A DNA stretch of 64,000 nt, from NCBI GenBank assembly GCA_000965745.1, contig CP009479.1, positions 1,374,457-1,438,456 on the forward strand. The letters run 5' to 3'. The stretch's first letter is position 1, and each line of letters begins with the position of its first letter. A program made the position numbers and the translations under genes. The notes under the pieces are model-generated. The model worked only from the letters and a program-made list of their open reading frames with translations. It was not told the origin of the DNA and made no database searches. This DNA comes from an uncultured archaeon. GTDB taxonomy: Archaea; Thermoplasmatota; Thermoplasmata; Thermoplasmatales; Thermoplasmataceae. Shown here one piece after another: positions 24,495-30,703 of this stretch.

Positions 24495-27400
24495 ATGATT
24501 GATATGATGATTGAAAGCCTTGAACTGGATAACTTCAAATCGTTCGGAAATAAAAGGAAGATTCTTTTCCGGAAAGGATTCACCGTCATAAGCGGTCCGA
24601 ATGGAAGCGGCAAGAGCAATATAGGCGACTCAATGCTCTTTGTCCTCGGAGTCCGCTCTTCAAAGGCTGTAAGGGCAGACAGGCTTGCTGACCTGATACA
24701 CAAGGCTTCCAGCCCTAACAGGCAGAGGGATACCTGCAAGGTCACAATCACATTCAACAGTGAAAACCCGGAACTTTCAGAGGATGAAAAGAGGATCAGG
24801 CTCACGAGGGAATTGATTTCCGATACCGAAAGTTATCATTCAAATTATTACATCAACGGGGAGAGGGTCAGGCACTCCGACGTTGAAAGGCTACTAGACT
24901 CACTGCACATATATCTTGACTCATACAGCTTTGTGCTGCAGGGTGACATCAACAACATAATAAAAATGAGCGGGATCGAAAGAAGAAAACTTCTTGAATC
25001 CATCTCCGGCATCGAGAGTTTCGACGTGCAAATAGACAAAGCAAAATCCGACATCGAAGCGATATCCGGAAACCTGACAAAACTCGAAATTATGCACGAA
25101 GAAGCCCAGCGACGACTGGAAGAACTCAGGATAGACAAGGAAAATGCTGAAACTTTTAACTCCTATTCACAGAGAATAAAGGACATGAGGGCCACCCTTC
25201 TTGGATATGACCTGAACAGGCTGAACAGGGACGTTGAGTCAGTTGAGACTCAGATTTCCAGCCTTACCTCAGAGATTGACACTTTAAACCTTGAGAACTC
25301 AGGCCTCCAGGAAGATGTGGAATCAAAAAGGTCCACACTCAAAAAGCTCGAGGAGGAAAGAGAAGCGATCTCCGGTTCTGAGCTAGGGGAGATAAGGCAG
25401 CACATTGCGGATCTGAGGGTAAAAATCGCTGAGTTCAGGATGAAGAAGGATGACAGGGGCGAGCAGATCCACAATCTTCAGGAAGAGGTATCCAGCAGGG
25501 ATAGCCAGTCCGAGGAGATCAGGAAAACAATTTCGTCCAAGAGTGATGCACTGGAATCCAGGGAGTCGGAACTCATGAGAATTCAGGACGAAATGAGGCG
25601 CATAGAAGAACAACTTTCCAAAATGAGGATAGAGTTCAGCGATTCCACAAAATCAGCAAAGAAGTTTCAGGAGAGGCTTGTGGAGATTGATGCAAGCATA
25701 GACAACATCAATTCACAGAACGATGCTGTCAGGGAGAAATATAACGAACTAATCCAGGAAAAATCAAAGATCATGACTGAACTGGTCTCCCGTGAGGAAA
25801 AGAGAAAAGATCTCGAATTCCAGATTAAGGATGCCCAGTGGAGGCTTAAGGACATATCGGGAACCGACCAGACCAAGAGGAAGACGCTCCAGGACCTGAG
25901 AAAGCAGTACTATGAAGTCAAGAATGAGCTGGAGGAAAACCAGAAAGCAAAGGAAGCTGCCAAAGACAGGCTTTCTATCCTTTCAAGGGAATATGACAAA
26001 CTTACCATGAGCATGCAGGGGTCAAGAGGCGCAGGATCGAGAACCCTCTCATCAATCATAAACGCCAGAAACCAGAACATGATTGATGGCATTCATGGCC
26101 CCATCAGGGACCTCATAAGCTTTGATGAGAAGTACAGAAGTGCCGTAGAATCAACTGCAGGAGGCAGGCTTAACGCTGTTGTTGTTGAGAATGACCAGGT
26201 GGCCCAGGAATGCCTGGAATATCTGAGGAAAGAGAAGATAGGCAAACTTACATTTCTGCCGCTTAACAAGTTAAGTACAGGCCGGCCAAGGGGAAAGGCA
26301 ATCATTGTGCATGGGTCAGACGGCTCACTTGGCTATGTGTTTGAGCATATATCATATGAGAGCGTATATGAGGCTGCTGTCTGGTACGCTTTTCAGGATA
26401 CGGTTATAGTTGACACTGTCCAGACTGCAAGAAAGTACATGGTCGGTGTAAGGCTTGTTACCCTTGGAGGGGATATTTTTGAGGCAAGCGGCGCCATCAC
26501 AGGTGGTTATAATGAAGCACGGAAGAGCAATGCCGCCACGGAATCCAAATTATCACAGCTTTCCTCCGAAATTAACGGCCTCAATGAAGAATTAAGCATT
26601 CTGAACCCTAAAATAGAGGATGGCAAACACCTTGTGGACCAGCTTACCACAGAAATGACGGAACTTTCAAAGGAAGAAGGGTCAAAGACCAAAGAGATAG
26701 ATCAACTCAGGGAGATAGCGGAGAAGGCGGAAAGACAGATCGAGGGGGTTGACTCACAGGTTGCAGAGTCTGAGGAATCCCTTCGAAAAACTGAAAACCA
26801 CCTCAAGGCGCTCAATGAAGAAATGCTGGAGAACGGCGACAAAATAGACCAGCTTTCAAAGGAGAAATCAGAAATCCATGAGAAGTTGAAATCCCTGTCT
26901 CCCGAAACCGTAGAGCTCCAGAGCGACCTGGAGAGGACTTATGCCTCACTAAGAACCGACGAGCAAAGCATGCTGGATGGTATTTCATCAACAAGATCAG
27001 ACTTGAAACATATGGAGGGGGACCTCCAGGAAAATGCGAAGCTGATAGGTAACAGCACCAATCAGATCGTCCAGCTGAAAGATGAAGTCAATGTCCTGCA
27101 GGATCGGATCTCTGAACAGAATACTGAACTTGAAAAATACAGGAAGATCGAAGAGGAAATGGACCAGAAGACAAAAGAGCAGACAGAGAAGATCCATGCA
27201 ATAGAGAATGAGGTCGAAAGGATAAGCGGCAGGATGGAGGGAAACAAGTCCCTGGTTTCAACAAAGCATGATGTCATTATCACTCTAAGCTCAAGGCTTG
27301 AAACTTACAGGACCAAAATTACGGAAATAGAGGAGCAACTGGCCGAGACCGGTGGAACTGCAATTCAGGAGAAACTTTCAATTACGGAAATAAAAGGCAC

Positions 27401-28043
27401 GATAAGCGATCTTGAGAACAGGATTGAGCAGCTCGGGCCGATAAACCACAAAGCGATTACTGAGTTTGATGAGGTTAGTGTTGAATGTTCAAACATTTCA
27501 GAGGAGATGACCAGGCTGAAGGAAGAAAAGAAAAGCCTTGAGGATTTGACCGAGAAGCTAAACGAGCAGAAGAAGACAATTTTCCTCAATCTATATCACG
27601 CCATAAACCAGCACATGAACGAGATATACGCAACACTTTCGGCAGGCGGCGAAGCACAGCTGGTACTTTCTGATGAGCTTGACCCGCTGAACGCAGAAGT
27701 TTCTATCAGGGCAAGGCCGAAAGGGAGAAACTTCAGCAAGCTCCACTCACTTAGTGGCGGGGAAAAGAGCCTGACTGCTCTTTCGTTTATAATGGCTGTT
27801 CAGAGAATAAACCCGTCCCCGATATACTATCTTGACGAGGTGGACATGTTCCTTGACGGAGCAAACGTGGAAAGGATCGGCAAGATGTTCAAGAGCAACT
27901 CCTCAACTTCGCAGATTCTTGTTGTATCGCTGAGGAAAGCGATGCTGAAATATGCTGAAAACATCATCGGTGTCACAAGTTTCGACGAGGAAAACACTGA
28001 AGTATTCGAGAAATCTCTCGGGACTGAACCGGAGGTGTTCTGA
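24495..28043 (+). CDS. smc: chromosome segregation protein SMC
   Basis: The 1182-residue condensin ATPase has an N-terminal Walker A GPNGSGKSN (about residues 34-42), a long coiled coil, a hinge near 510-640 (HGPIRDLISFDEKYRSAVESTAGGRLNAVVVEN), a second coiled coil, ABC signature LHSLSGGEKSLTALSF and Walker B PIYYLDEVDMFLD. Length is full. Methionines at codons 1, 4 and 5 could all start; the first ATG is listed. It overlaps scpA by one base (TGATG), so the two partners are made from one mRNA. Confidence 0.97.
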   Translation: MIDMMIESLELDNFKSFGNKRKILFRKGFTVISGPNGSGKSNIGDSMLFVLGVRSSKAVRADRLADLIHKASSPNRQRDTCKVTITFNSENPELSEDEKRIRLTRELISDTESYHSNYYINGERVRHSDVERLLDSLHIYLDSYSFVLQGDINNIIKMSGIERRKLLESISGIESFDVQIDKAKSDIEAISGNLTKLEIMHEEAQRRLEELRIDKENAETFNSYSQRIKDMRATLLGYDLNRLNRDVESVETQISSLTSEIDTLNLENSGLQEDVESKRSTLKKLEEEREAISGSELGEIRQHIADLRVKIAEFRMKKDDRGEQIHNLQEEVSSRDSQSEEIRKTISSKSDALESRESELMRIQDEMRRIEEQLSKMRIEFSDSTKSAKKFQERLVEIDASIDNINSQNDAVREKYNELIQEKSKIMTELVSREEKRKDLEFQIKDAQWRLKDISGTDQTKRKTLQDLRKQYYEVKNELEENQKAKEAAKDRLSILSREYDKLTMSMQGSRGAGSRTLSSIINARNQNMIDGIHGPIRDLISFDEKYRSAVESTAGGRLNAVVVENDQVAQECLEYLRKEKIGKLTFLPLNKLSTGRPRGKAIIVHGSDGSLGYVFEHISYESVYEAAVWYAFQDTVIVDTVQTARKYMVGVRLVTLGGDIFEASGAITGGYNEARKSNAATESKLSQLSSEINGLNEELSILNPKIEDGKHLVDQLTTEMTELSKEEGSKTKEIDQLREIAEKAERQIEGVDSQVAESEESLRKTENHLKALNEEMLENGDKIDQLSKEKSEIHEKLKSLSPETVELQSDLERTYASLRTDEQSMLDGISSTRSDLKHMEGDLQENAKLIGNSTNQIVQLKDEVNVLQDRISEQNTELEKYRKIEEEMDQKTKEQTEKIHAIENEVERISGRMEGNKSLVSTKHDVIITLSSRLETYRTKITEIEEQLAETGGTAIQEKLSITEIKGTISDLENRIEQLGPINHKAITEFDEVSVECSNISEEMTRLKEEKKSLEDLTEKLNEQKKTIFLNLYHAINQHMNEIYATLSAGGEAQLVLSDELDPLNAEVSIRARPKGRNFSKLHSLSGGEKSLTALSFIMAVQRINPSPIYYLDEVDMFLDGANVERIGKMFKSNSSTSQILVVSLRKAMLKYAENIIGVTSFDEENTEVFEKSLGTEPEVF

Positions 28044-28861
28044 TGGAAACGGATCAGGTGCTGAGAGATATAGTGGTCCAGGGAACCTTGCTTGATTACA
28101 ACACCGATGTGTATGCATCCATAATGAAGAAAACCAAGGATTCACGGGAATTCTCGGACCCTTTCGCCAGGCTTGTGGCCTCTACATTCAAGCTATGCGA
28201 GGAGGGTGTCATAGATCCGTGGAATGTTGATCTTCGAGGTTTTTCCAAAATATTCATATCAATAATTGACGAGACGTTCGATCGGTTTGGCATGGCTGGG
28301 TACCTGATAGGTCAGGCATGGCACATTCTTCTTGAAAAAACGGAAAGGTCCGTTATGAAGAGGCAGCAGCTGGAGGTCCCGGAAACCTACGTTGAAGAGG
28401 GCCCGGATGATGGGATGGAGTCTCCCGTGCTTGAATTTGAGCCGCGAGCCCTTGAGCTTTCTGAACCGGTCAAGCACAGGGAAAAGAGGCAGGTAATGCT
28501 TGTGGAACTGCTTGAGGCAATGCGTGTTGCGGTAAGGAAGGAGAGGAAGAGAGTTCACACAACCCGGCAGGAAAAGGAAGAATTTGACGCCACAGCCATG
28601 GAGGAGATAATATTCGAACTTCACGCCGAAGAACCTGAGAAGGAAATTGATAACACCTACGAAAAAATACTCTCGCAGTTCGCAGATCAGTTCTACATTG
28701 AAGAAATATGGGGAAGCAGCGTGGAGGACAGGTGGGGCTTTTTTGTATATTGCCTGTTTCTCATGAGGGAGAAGAGGATCATCCTGAAACAGGAAGGCGC
28801 TTTTGGGAAAATCTCCATCCAGCGTATCGCGAGGCCGGATGGGCAGGTCATCAACATTTGA
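28043..28861 (+). CDS. scpA: segregation and condensation protein ScpA (kleisin)
   Basis: The 272-residue kleisin bridges the SMC heads. The N-terminal part has DPFARLVASTFKLCEEGVIDPWNVDLRGFSKIFISIID. The middle is a charged linker (about 115-190). The C-terminal winged helix ends with DRWGFFVYCLFLMREKRIILKQEGAFGKISIQ, the SMC-binding end. It is translationally coupled to smc. No scpB-like gene is seen in the window. A Cas4-like gene follows after 34 nt. Confidence 0.88.
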   Translation: METDQVLRDIVVQGTLLDYNTDVYASIMKKTKDSREFSDPFARLVASTFKLCEEGVIDPWNVDLRGFSKIFISIIDETFDRFGMAGYLIGQAWHILLEKTERSVMKRQQLEVPETYVEEGPDDGMESPVLEFEPRALELSEPVKHREKRQVMLVELLEAMRVAVRKERKRVHTTRQEKEEFDATAMEEIIFELHAEEPEKEIDNTYEKILSQFADQFYIEEIWGSSVEDRWGFFVYCLFLMREKRIILKQEGAFGKISIQRIARPDGQVINI

Positions 28862-28895
28862 GCCTGCTAGGTTGCCAGGAGGAAATCTGCTTTCC

Positions 28896-29144
28896 ATGAA
28901 AGATGACGGCACCCTCAGTGCATCTGAAATATCCGAGTACTCATTTTGCAGTGTGGCTTGGTACATGGATTCAAACGGCTATCCAAGGAGCACAATATCT
29001 TCCAAAAGGATGGAGAATGGCAGGAAAATGCACAAGAAGCTTGAGCCGAGGTACAAAAGGGTAAGCATTGCTGCCAGACTGTCGATTGCTGCCATTGTTC
29101 TACTTTCAATAATATTGGTGGCCTTTGCCGCAGGGCTGATCTGA
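28896..29144 (+). CDS. Cas4-like nuclease, N-terminal half with C-terminal membrane helix
   Basis: An 82-residue product. SASEISEYSFCSVAWYMDSNGYPR has the first cysteine of the Cas4 Fe-S cluster region, and MENGRKMHKKLEP has the G-x-x-x-H nuclease motif I. Residues about 57-82 are a membrane helix (LSIAAIVLLSIILVAFAAGLI) ending at TGA (29142-29144). The next codon, GTG, continues the same frame into the rest of a Cas4-like protein, so this half lacks the catalytic D and E-x-K. AGGAGG (about 28876-28882) precedes the ATG. It is either one subunit of a split enzyme, one half of a recoded protein, or a nonsense mutant. Confidence 0.7.
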   Translation: MKDDGTLSASEISEYSFCSVAWYMDSNGYPRSTISSKRMENGRKMHKKLEPRYKRVSIAARLSIAAIVLLSIILVAFAAGLI

Positions 29145-29660
29145 GTGGATGCTTATGAGATATACGCGATCCTCTTTCTTCTCATAATGCTCTTTGTGAT
29201 AATGTCAGCCGTCCTTTCCCGCTCCAGAAAGAAATTTGCAATGCCCGATGGAAAGGCAGTATATGGAGACCTCATGGCTGAGGGGAAAATCCTGAGATCA
29301 CGAAGGTACGGCCTAACGGGAAAGCCTGACAAGATTGTGCAGAACGGGAAAGAAGTGGTGCCCTACGAGTACAAGTCAACAGATGCTGTAAGGCCCAGGG
29401 AGGGGCACATGCTCCAGATGGCCGCATACTTTGTGATACTGGAGGAGAACTTCCCGGGCTCAAAGGTTGAATACGGCATACTGAAGTACAAGAATTATGC
29501 ATTCAGGATTGAAAACAGCCAGCGGCTCCGGGAAGAGCTCTTCAATGTAATGGGCAGGATAAGGGGGAACCTTGGGATGCCTGAACCCAACCATAATAAT
29601 CCGGGAAGGTGCGTATATTGCAGTTTCCGTGGAACCTGTTCAAAAAAGTTAATTAAATGA
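29145..29660 (+). CDS. Cas4-like (PD-(D/E)XK) nuclease, C-terminal half with N-terminal membrane helix
   Basis: 171 residues starting with GTG immediately after the TGA of the preceding half, in the same frame. It opens with a membrane helix (IYAILFLLIMLFVIMSAVL). LTGKPDKIV (catalytic Asp), VPYEYKST (E-x-K) and HMLQMAAYFVILEE (motif III Gln/Tyr) follow. The end has GRCVYCSFRGTCSKK, three cysteines that with the one in the first half would make the usual Fe-S set. The two membrane helices would form a hairpin anchoring the nuclease. No ribosome site is evident before the GTG; reinitiation or readthrough is needed. It overlaps tyrS as ATGA. Confidence 0.72.
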   Translation: MDAYEIYAILFLLIMLFVIMSAVLSRSRKKFAMPDGKAVYGDLMAEGKILRSRRYGLTGKPDKIVQNGKEVVPYEYKSTDAVRPREGHMLQMAAYFVILEENFPGSKVEYGILKYKNYAFRIENSQRLREELFNVMGRIRGNLGMPEPNHNNPGRCVYCSFRGTCSKKLIK

Positions 29661-30703
29661 GACAGTATGTGCGCTGGTTCATGGATAAACTAGAACTCCT
29701 AGCCAGAAACATGGTGGAAGTGATCACGGAAGCTGAAGCCAAGGACGCACTGGAATCAGGGAGGAACAAGGCATACATTGGTTTTGAGCCTTCAGGTCTG
29801 CCGCACATCGCCACGGGGCTCCTCTGGCCAAGAAAACTTAACGATCTTATAGAGCTTGGGCTGGACACCACCGTACTCCTTGCTGACTGGCATGCCAAGG
29901 TGAACGACAAGCTCGGCGGAGACCTTTCCAGGATTCAGGAGAGTGGCCGCCTTCTCCTGAAGAGCATGAAGGTTATGGGCCTCAGCGACAAGGTCAAGTT
30001 TCTCTGGACAAGTGACATGGTTTCGGACCCGGAATACTGGAGCACACTCCTAAACGTGGCAAAAACGGCCAATCTTTCACGCATAAGGCGCGCCCTGCCA
30101 ATAATGGGAAGAACCGAGGAGGATGCGGACAAAGATTTCAGCAAGTACATCTATCCTCTAATGCAGGTTACAGACATTTTCTACATGGACCTGGATTTTG
30201 CTTTTGGCGGAATGGACCAGAGGCACGCGCACATGCTCGCCAGGGACGTGGCAGAAAAAATGGGCAGAAAGAAAGTTATATCTGTGCACGGCCCCCTCCT
30301 TGGAAGCCTTACCGGGACGGGCAGGATGGATTCATTCAAGAAGATGTCAAAGAGCGACCCTAACTCAGCAATATTCCTTTTTGATCCTCCTGAAAAGGTG
30401 AGGTCCAAGATAAAGAAGGCATACTGTCCAATCAAGGAGGTAGAAGGGAACCCCGTAATGGACATAATACGACACATAATAATGCCGTATTATGGGGAGA
30501 ACTTTTTGATACGTAGGCCTCCGCAGAAAGGTGGTGAAATTTCCCCAGAAACATATGGCGAGCTTGAGAAGCTATATGTCAATGGCGACATCCATCCGGT
30601 TGATCTCAAGAACGCGGTCTCTGACGCACTAAACGAAATGATAGCCCCGGCTAACAGGCTCGTCGAAAGAGAAGAGATTGATCTGAGCAATTTCCAGGTC
30701 TAG
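29657..30703 (+). CDS. tyrS: tyrosyl-tRNA synthetase (archaeal type)
   Basis: The 348-residue class I synthetase charges tRNA-Tyr. It has GFEPSGLPHIATG (HIGH-type motif in the family form), LLADWHAKVNDKLGG, the tyrosine-pocket segment YPLMQVTDIF, and KKMSKSDPNSA (KMSKS). It lacks the bacterial S4 domain, as archaeal enzymes do. The ATG at 29657 overlaps the stop of the nuclease gene; an ATG at 29681 (MDKLELLARN) is nearer the usual family start and is an alternative. Confidence 0.94.
   Translation: MRQYVRWFMDKLELLARNMVEVITEAEAKDALESGRNKAYIGFEPSGLPHIATGLLWPRKLNDLIELGLDTTVLLADWHAKVNDKLGGDLSRIQESGRLLLKSMKVMGLSDKVKFLWTSDMVSDPEYWSTLLNVAKTANLSRIRRALPIMGRTEEDADKDFSKYIYPLMQVTDIFYMDLDFAFGGMDQRHAHMLARDVAEKMGRKKVISVHGPLLGSLTGTGRMDSFKKMSKSDPNSAIFLFDPPEKVRSKIKKAYCPIKEVEGNPVMDIIRHIIMPYYGENFLIRRPPQKGGEISPETYGELEKLYVNGDIHPVDLKNAVSDALNEMIAPANRLVEREEIDLSNFQV

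Follow-up and report, generated by a model that had tools for sequence, protein, structure and literature searches.

The closest described relatives of the locus analysed here are the nucleases of the Cas4 family (PF01930/TIGR00372), which includes the solo-Cas4 proteins. Among RecB-type nucleases, an Fe–S 'iron staple' also occurs in Dna2 and AdnAB, which carry no membrane anchor and have their nuclease domain within one polypeptide. In Cas4, the four conserved cysteines hold one Fe–S cluster, and the iron-staple class is named in the same study (PMC4176176). The Cas4 proteins in the literature examined are each one soluble chain; a search reaching little of the subscription literature turned up no paper on a Cas4 that is split or membrane-spanning, and the words transmembrane, split and fission are absent from a survey of the family (PMC5704561). 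A second type of described system is the coupled overlapping gene pair, spaced at −4, −1, 0 or +1 nt and often encoding subunits of a complex (PMC6728339, PMC10666635). In archaea, termination–reinitiation requires overlaps or very short gaps, and coupled pairs are enriched for complex subunits (PMC10666635).

The locus lies in a window (the whole 64,000-nucleotide stretch of DNA analysed) from an archaeon of the Thermoplasmataceae. With the Cas4 family it shares PD-(D/E)XK motifs II and III, QxxxY, GxxxH and an arrangement of 1+3 cysteines, as well as a fold match to SSO0001, type I-C Cas4 and Cas4/Cas1 structures; unlike the soluble Cas4 chains, it is split between two membrane helices and has no cas neighbours. 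With the nuclease domains of Dna2 and AdnAB it shares the RecB-like nuclease fold, as judged by structure search. Its spacing is that of coupled gene pairs, from which it differs in being homologous to a single protein, in having halves that share one predicted active site and in a second start that, across the split pairs, is often non-AUG. We read positions 28896–29660 as a two-gene module whose products are the two subunits of a Cas4-like nuclease (RecB-type, PD-(D/E)XK, Fe–S) anchored in the membrane, at a probability of about 0.86; the complex, its activity and its role are what we infer.

The split frame and its Cas4-like parts

The frame 28896–29660 (+) is open on either side of a single in-frame TGA (29142–29144), directly followed by GTG (29145–29147), and the junction reads GGGCTGATC TGA GTG GATGCT. 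The features of the locus and its neighbours are as follows.

24495–28043, + strand: smc, first gene of the conserved cluster (TIGR02169, 920 bits; synteny)
28043–28861, + strand: scpA-like kleisin gene, ATGA overlap with smc (profile of relatives matches ScpA structure 6ivh, 3.5e-05; synteny)
28877–28882, + strand: Shine–Dalgarno-like AGGAGG upstream of the N-half ATG (sequence)
28896–29144, + strand: N-half gene, 82 aa plus TGA, with an Fe–S cysteine, the GxxxH motif and membrane helix 1 (ORF; present in all family genomes with the C-half)
28947–28949, + strand: predicted Fe–S cysteine 1, N-half Cys18 (invariant in 67/67 split pairs)
29031–29033, + strand: GxxxH histidine, N-half His46, predicted metal ligand (alignment; presumed counterpart of Cas4 His62 in SSO0001 and His94 in Pcal_0546, PMC4176176)
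29085–29141, + strand: membrane helix 1, N-half residues 64–82, reaching the stop (hydropathy; model helix 33–83)
29132–29141, + strand: Shine–Dalgarno-like AGGGCTGATC upstream of the C-half GTG (−9.1 kcal/mol duplex with the anti-Shine–Dalgarno)
29142–29147, + strand: stop–start junction TGAGTG, offset 0 nt (homologous junctions at −7 to +4 nt in 47/47 family loci)
29145–29660, + strand: C-half gene, 171 aa, GTG start, with membrane helix 2, GKPD, ExK, QxxxY and three Fe–S cysteines (Cas_Cas4 and TIGR00372 matches)
29160–29216, + strand: membrane helix 2, C-half residues 6–24 (hydropathy; helix 86–112 of the joined model)
29328–29375, + strand: predicted catalytic Asp (C-half D62) and E75-x-K77 (alignment of split pairs)
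29610–29639, + strand: predicted Fe–S cysteines 2–4, C-half Cys156, Cys159 and Cys165 (invariant in 67/67 split pairs)
29657–30703, + strand: tyrS, ATGA overlap with the C-half stop (synteny)

Located before the stop are Cys18, Trp22 and G42xxxH46, and after it GKPD, ExK, QxxxY and CxxC...C. Each half bears one hydrophobic segment, the TGA falling between the two by hydropathy and in the model. TGA serves as a normal stop codon in this operon, where it also ends smc, the scpA-like gene and the C-half gene.

The joined frame matches PDDEXK_1 (6e-13) and Cas_Cas4 (2.9e-10) in Pfam and scores 85.2 bits with NCBIfam TIGR00372 cas4 (cut-off 65), the C-half by itself reaching 68.1; the PADLOC Cas4 match is at 9.4e-26, and a profile built from C-halves matched Cas4 in the PDB. 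The PD-(D/E)XK-type motifs of Cas4 are complete in the window pair. The Cas4-like cysteine layout, one N-terminal and three C-terminal, is present in all 67 split pairs, spread over two polypeptides. By homology the window pair is assigned to the Cas4 nuclease family, with DNA exonuclease activity and a bound cluster predicted. A phmmer search of the PDB with the joined frame gave chance-level matches only (viral NS1), which were disregarded, as was a weak Pfam NS1 match.

These results bear out much of a preliminary description of this DNA. It had placed the TGA and the GTG in one frame that jointly spells a Cas4-like protein, as the Pfam and TIGR00372 matches confirm; the alignment agrees with its placement of the first cysteine and GxxxH before the stop and of the Asp, ExK, QxxxY and three cysteines after it; and its location of the stop between two hydrophobic helices matches both the hydropathy profile and a helix break at residues 84–85 of an AlphaFold model.

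Conservation of the gene boundary

Strong matches to the C-half were obtained in 48 of 77 genomes of the family, and a one-piece version in none. The N-half is present in every family genome having the C-half (in G080 the halves sit at contig ends), and when 41 related genomes were searched with the joined protein, most of those belonging to the family matched the two halves separately. All 47 family junctions that could be parsed consist of two ORFs divided at the same site between two membrane helices, with the C-half starting −7 to +4 nt relative to the N-half stop in all three relative frames; the stops are TGA, TAA or TAG and the starts ATG, GTG, TTG or CTG. At locus L104 of the draft genome G045, ATC occupies the C-half start position, and in genus g3 (L072, L073 and L076) the C-half apparently starts at CTG (CTGA overlap) behind a G-rich Shine–Dalgarno.

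Stop and start frames agree in only 4 of 67 split pairs (the window, G014, G068 and G069), each with abutting stop and start codons, and stand in a +1 or +2 relation in the other 63; frames 0, 1 and 2 number 4, 22 and 35 in a reduced set of 61 pairs. In-frame abutting codons are also seen in genus g15 (TAAATG, TGAATG). With so few pairs in frame, the TGAGTG of the window is one variant of stop–start coupling, and because relatives use other frames, stops and starts, its TGA merely happens to be in frame through the spacing, and what is conserved is the gene boundary. The nearest split pair to that of the window is ~54% identical, the comparison set containing no near-identical genome.

Inspection of the scpA region in 11 family genomes without the C-half found no intact N-half there either. 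In G007, scpA directly adjoins tyrS and the pair is absent. A gap of ~360 bp between the scpA-like gene and tyrS of G004 (L132) holds an N-half-like hydrophobic remnant and no C-half, and the pair appears to have decayed there.

Beyond the family, the same split architecture is found in three genomes (G027, G348 and G349) from two other families of the order. A class-wide search of 349 genomes revealed a one-piece relative of ~330 aa in many families, and these three genomes hold the one-piece gene as well as the split pair, in different neighbourhoods. This Thermoplasmata membrane protein, for which no description was found in the literature searched (for example, for loci L126 and L130), shares with the split pairs the order of N-domain, membrane part and C-domain, the motifs and the cysteines, and provides their closest homologues in the tree; it differs in being a single ORF, mostly with four membrane segments (26 of 33 proteins). 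In a phylum-wide search, short C-half ORFs were found in family f42 of another class, where 17 loci were verified to hold an N-half and a C-half, again divided between these two helices. An alignment-based scan of genome contigs returned 34 loci, all labelled as Thermoplasmata-related archaea, and a genome titled Cuniculiplasma, for which a mass-spectrometry study exists (PMC7285479), carries the pair; a single-protein scan of genome contigs with the C-half gave no match, and an alignment-based scan of viral contigs no relative.

In trees built on N-domain and C-domain columns and unrooted with respect to outside Cas4, a single branch parts the 61 split from the 33 one-piece sequences (SH-aLRT 98; 99/99 in the first tree), and among the split pairs the relative frame has switched at least eight times. 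All split pairs fall on one side of this branch of the unrooted tree; a single fission, later inherited, is the simplest reading of their origin.

Two halves of one predicted enzyme

The His of the N-half GxxxH and the ExK of the C-half are missing together from the same 5 of 67 pairs and kept in the other 62. The five are G070 (L112) and a clade of G049, G054, G053 and G048 (L114–L117), in which all four cysteines are kept; a misaligned His column in G048 was scored as a loss. The association has a Fisher P of 1e-7 ignoring phylogeny, the real count being two events. In all usable pairs dN/dS is below 0.25 in both halves (mostly 0.02–0.13), and purifying selection extends to the clade without the catalytic residues. 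As these five pairs are catalytically depleted and nevertheless conserved, selection does not in every case act to keep nuclease activity. The pairs of G070, G048, G049, G053 and G054 look like pseudo-nucleases.

AlphaFold, given one joined chain with W replacing the stop, returned a model with a pLDDT of 89.6 and a pTM of 0.82, in which two long helices break at residues 84–85 beside the stop. Being a single-chain run, it speaks for a good Cas4 fold of the joined sequence and not for a two-chain assembly. The best PDB matches to the model were Cas4 structures (7mi4, 8d3l and 4ic1), followed by Dna2 and AdnAB. Both halves probably form one active site and one Fe–S site, and the earlier proposal that co-inserted halves rebuild the active site gains support from the invariant cysteines on both, the joint loss of catalytic residues and the joint presence or absence of the halves.

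A hydrophobic segment is found in every N-half, ending about at the stop, and at the start of 65 of 67 C-halves. The 15-residue flanks on the inner side carry a mean net charge of +2.2 (N-half) and +4.0 (C-half), as would be expected if helix 1 were N-in and helix 2 C-in, leaving the soluble parts in the cytoplasm and almost nothing outside. The two products would accordingly insert in opposite orientation, the N-half N-in and the C-half C-in, with both soluble parts facing the cytoplasm. Paired there, they would build one PD-(D/E)XK site, with His supplied by the N-half and Asp, Glu, Lys, Gln and Tyr by the C-half, and one Fe–S cluster would be held by one N-half and three C-half cysteines.

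We infer that translation of the C-half is coupled to that of the N-half: ribosomes would terminate at TGA and then restart at the abutting GTG, aided by the Shine–Dalgarno-like stretch within the N-half. Set against its own coding background, the duplex energy of AGGGCTGATC falls in the top 7%, and the spacing (0 nt in the window and −7 to +4 nt across the 47 family loci) is that of a coupled gene pair. Family-wide, the Shine–Dalgarno signal before the C-half is modest (median rank 0.25). It is very strong in f42 (mean −11.7 kcal/mol, median rank 0.00). The expected C-half start codon of f42 (L217–L233) is ATA in 11 of 17 loci, overlapping the N-half stop by 4 nt (ATAG/ATAA) and sitting behind a near-perfect Shine–Dalgarno, GAGGTGATC; in some relatives ATG, TTG or CTG takes that position. 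Natural AUA initiation in f42 is a possibility raised by these sequences. The three f3/f4 pairs have a larger ORF overlap, with an ATG at −43 nt in G027; at the G348 and G349 junctions (L119 and L120, overlap ~20 nt or more), no ATG, GTG or TTG was seen near the expected C-half start.

Alternative readings, genomic context and meaning

Taken by itself, the window would suit a one-piece gene struck by a recent nonsense mutation or by a sequencing or assembly error, the TGA being the lone in-frame stop with clean coding sequence on both sides and no near-identical genome being available for comparison. All family relatives, however, are split at the same place, an in-frame abutting stop–start recurs in genus g15, and in relatives purifying selection acts on both halves. 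Mutation and base error, two options in the preliminary description, are refuted because relatives of ~50% identity share the split point with other stops, starts and frames and none is one-piece, leaving this reading extremely unlikely. A full-length protein could physically be made in the window, where the frames match, by UGA readthrough (or elsewhere by programmed frameshifting), and the joined frame folds confidently as a single chain; yet the +1 or +2 relation in 63 of 67 pairs, the repeated frame switches on the tree, the differing stop codons and the start codon at nearly all junctions speak against it, and inspection of the split-pair junctions by eye revealed no conserved slippery site. 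As most relatives are out of frame, UGA readthrough is refuted as a conserved mechanism, and full-length synthesis by either route is very improbable. The site as read in related genomes, a check proposed at the outset, offered no one-piece form and the same split in 47 of 47 parsed junctions, so what had been called a gene interrupted by TGA is instead a conserved two-gene arrangement; the remaining option, two subunits made by stop–start reinitiation, fits all comparative data.

The halves might also be separate proteins, the C-half working alone and the N-half a remnant or regulator, since the C-half bears most of the catalytic residues and clears the Cas4 cut-off unaided. Against this, the C-half is never without an N-half, which retains the fourth Fe–S cysteine in 67 of 67 pairs; the N-half His is lost in the same pairs as the C-half ExK, and dN/dS is similarly low in the two halves; we consider separate functions unlikely. 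A Cas4 for CRISPR adaptation, incidentally split, would accord with the nearest matches of the pair in sequence and fold and with Cas1 homologues elsewhere in the genome of the window, but the same non-cas neighbours recur in 47 loci. The conserved neighbourhood of these loci showed no cas gene, and Cas1 was undetected in 30 of 48 genomes with the pair, several of them 96–98% complete. Cas1 is present in 18 of 48 genomes with the pair versus 18 of 29 without it (Fisher P = 0.06, uncorrected for phylogeny or completeness), an association that is if anything negative. With no cas gene in the conserved neighbourhood and no Cas1 match in those 30 genomes, a role in CRISPR adaptation is highly unlikely. 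The three Cas1-family matches in the genome of the window lie outside the window (G000:C1:1251493-1252362, 2223667-2224611 and 1601730-1601993), and the weakest of them carries an internal stop.

The gene order smc, scpA-like gene, N-half, C-half, tyrS is found in 47 of 47 family loci; the scpA-like gene (28043–28861) has no Pfam or NCBIfam match. Other genes flank the f3, f4, f42 and one-piece loci, so the smc linkage is family-specific and SMC is not an obligate neighbour. Our best guess, held with low confidence, is that the pair processes DNA ends at the membrane as part of maintaining the chromosome, repairing DNA or defending the cell, and not in acquiring CRISPR spacers.

What is new here is that a Cas4-type nuclease apparently persists as two chains, each anchored in the membrane, with the break running through its active site and its Fe–S site. 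For a small single-domain enzyme to be split through both its active and metal sites, and to be held so over class-level divergence, is unusual. The chances seem to us evenly balanced for a bolder reading: an ancient, obligately split Fe–S nuclease in two archaeal classes, in which a single Fe–S cluster would bridge and lock two membrane chains, catalysis-less descendants would retain the bridge structurally, and the second subunit in f42 would start at AUA behind a near-perfect Shine–Dalgarno within the end of the first gene. As a caution for annotation, an in-frame stop in a lone genome may be a true gene boundary. The pseudo-nuclease descendants and putative AUA starts are open to direct testing, and the pair adds a membrane-anchored relative with a concrete SMC–kleisin operon context to the solo-Cas4 proteins. 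It also lends itself, as a natural system, to the question of why selection would maintain a gene in two pieces, be it for membrane orientation, for activity only when the chains meet or for an Fe–S-locked assembly.
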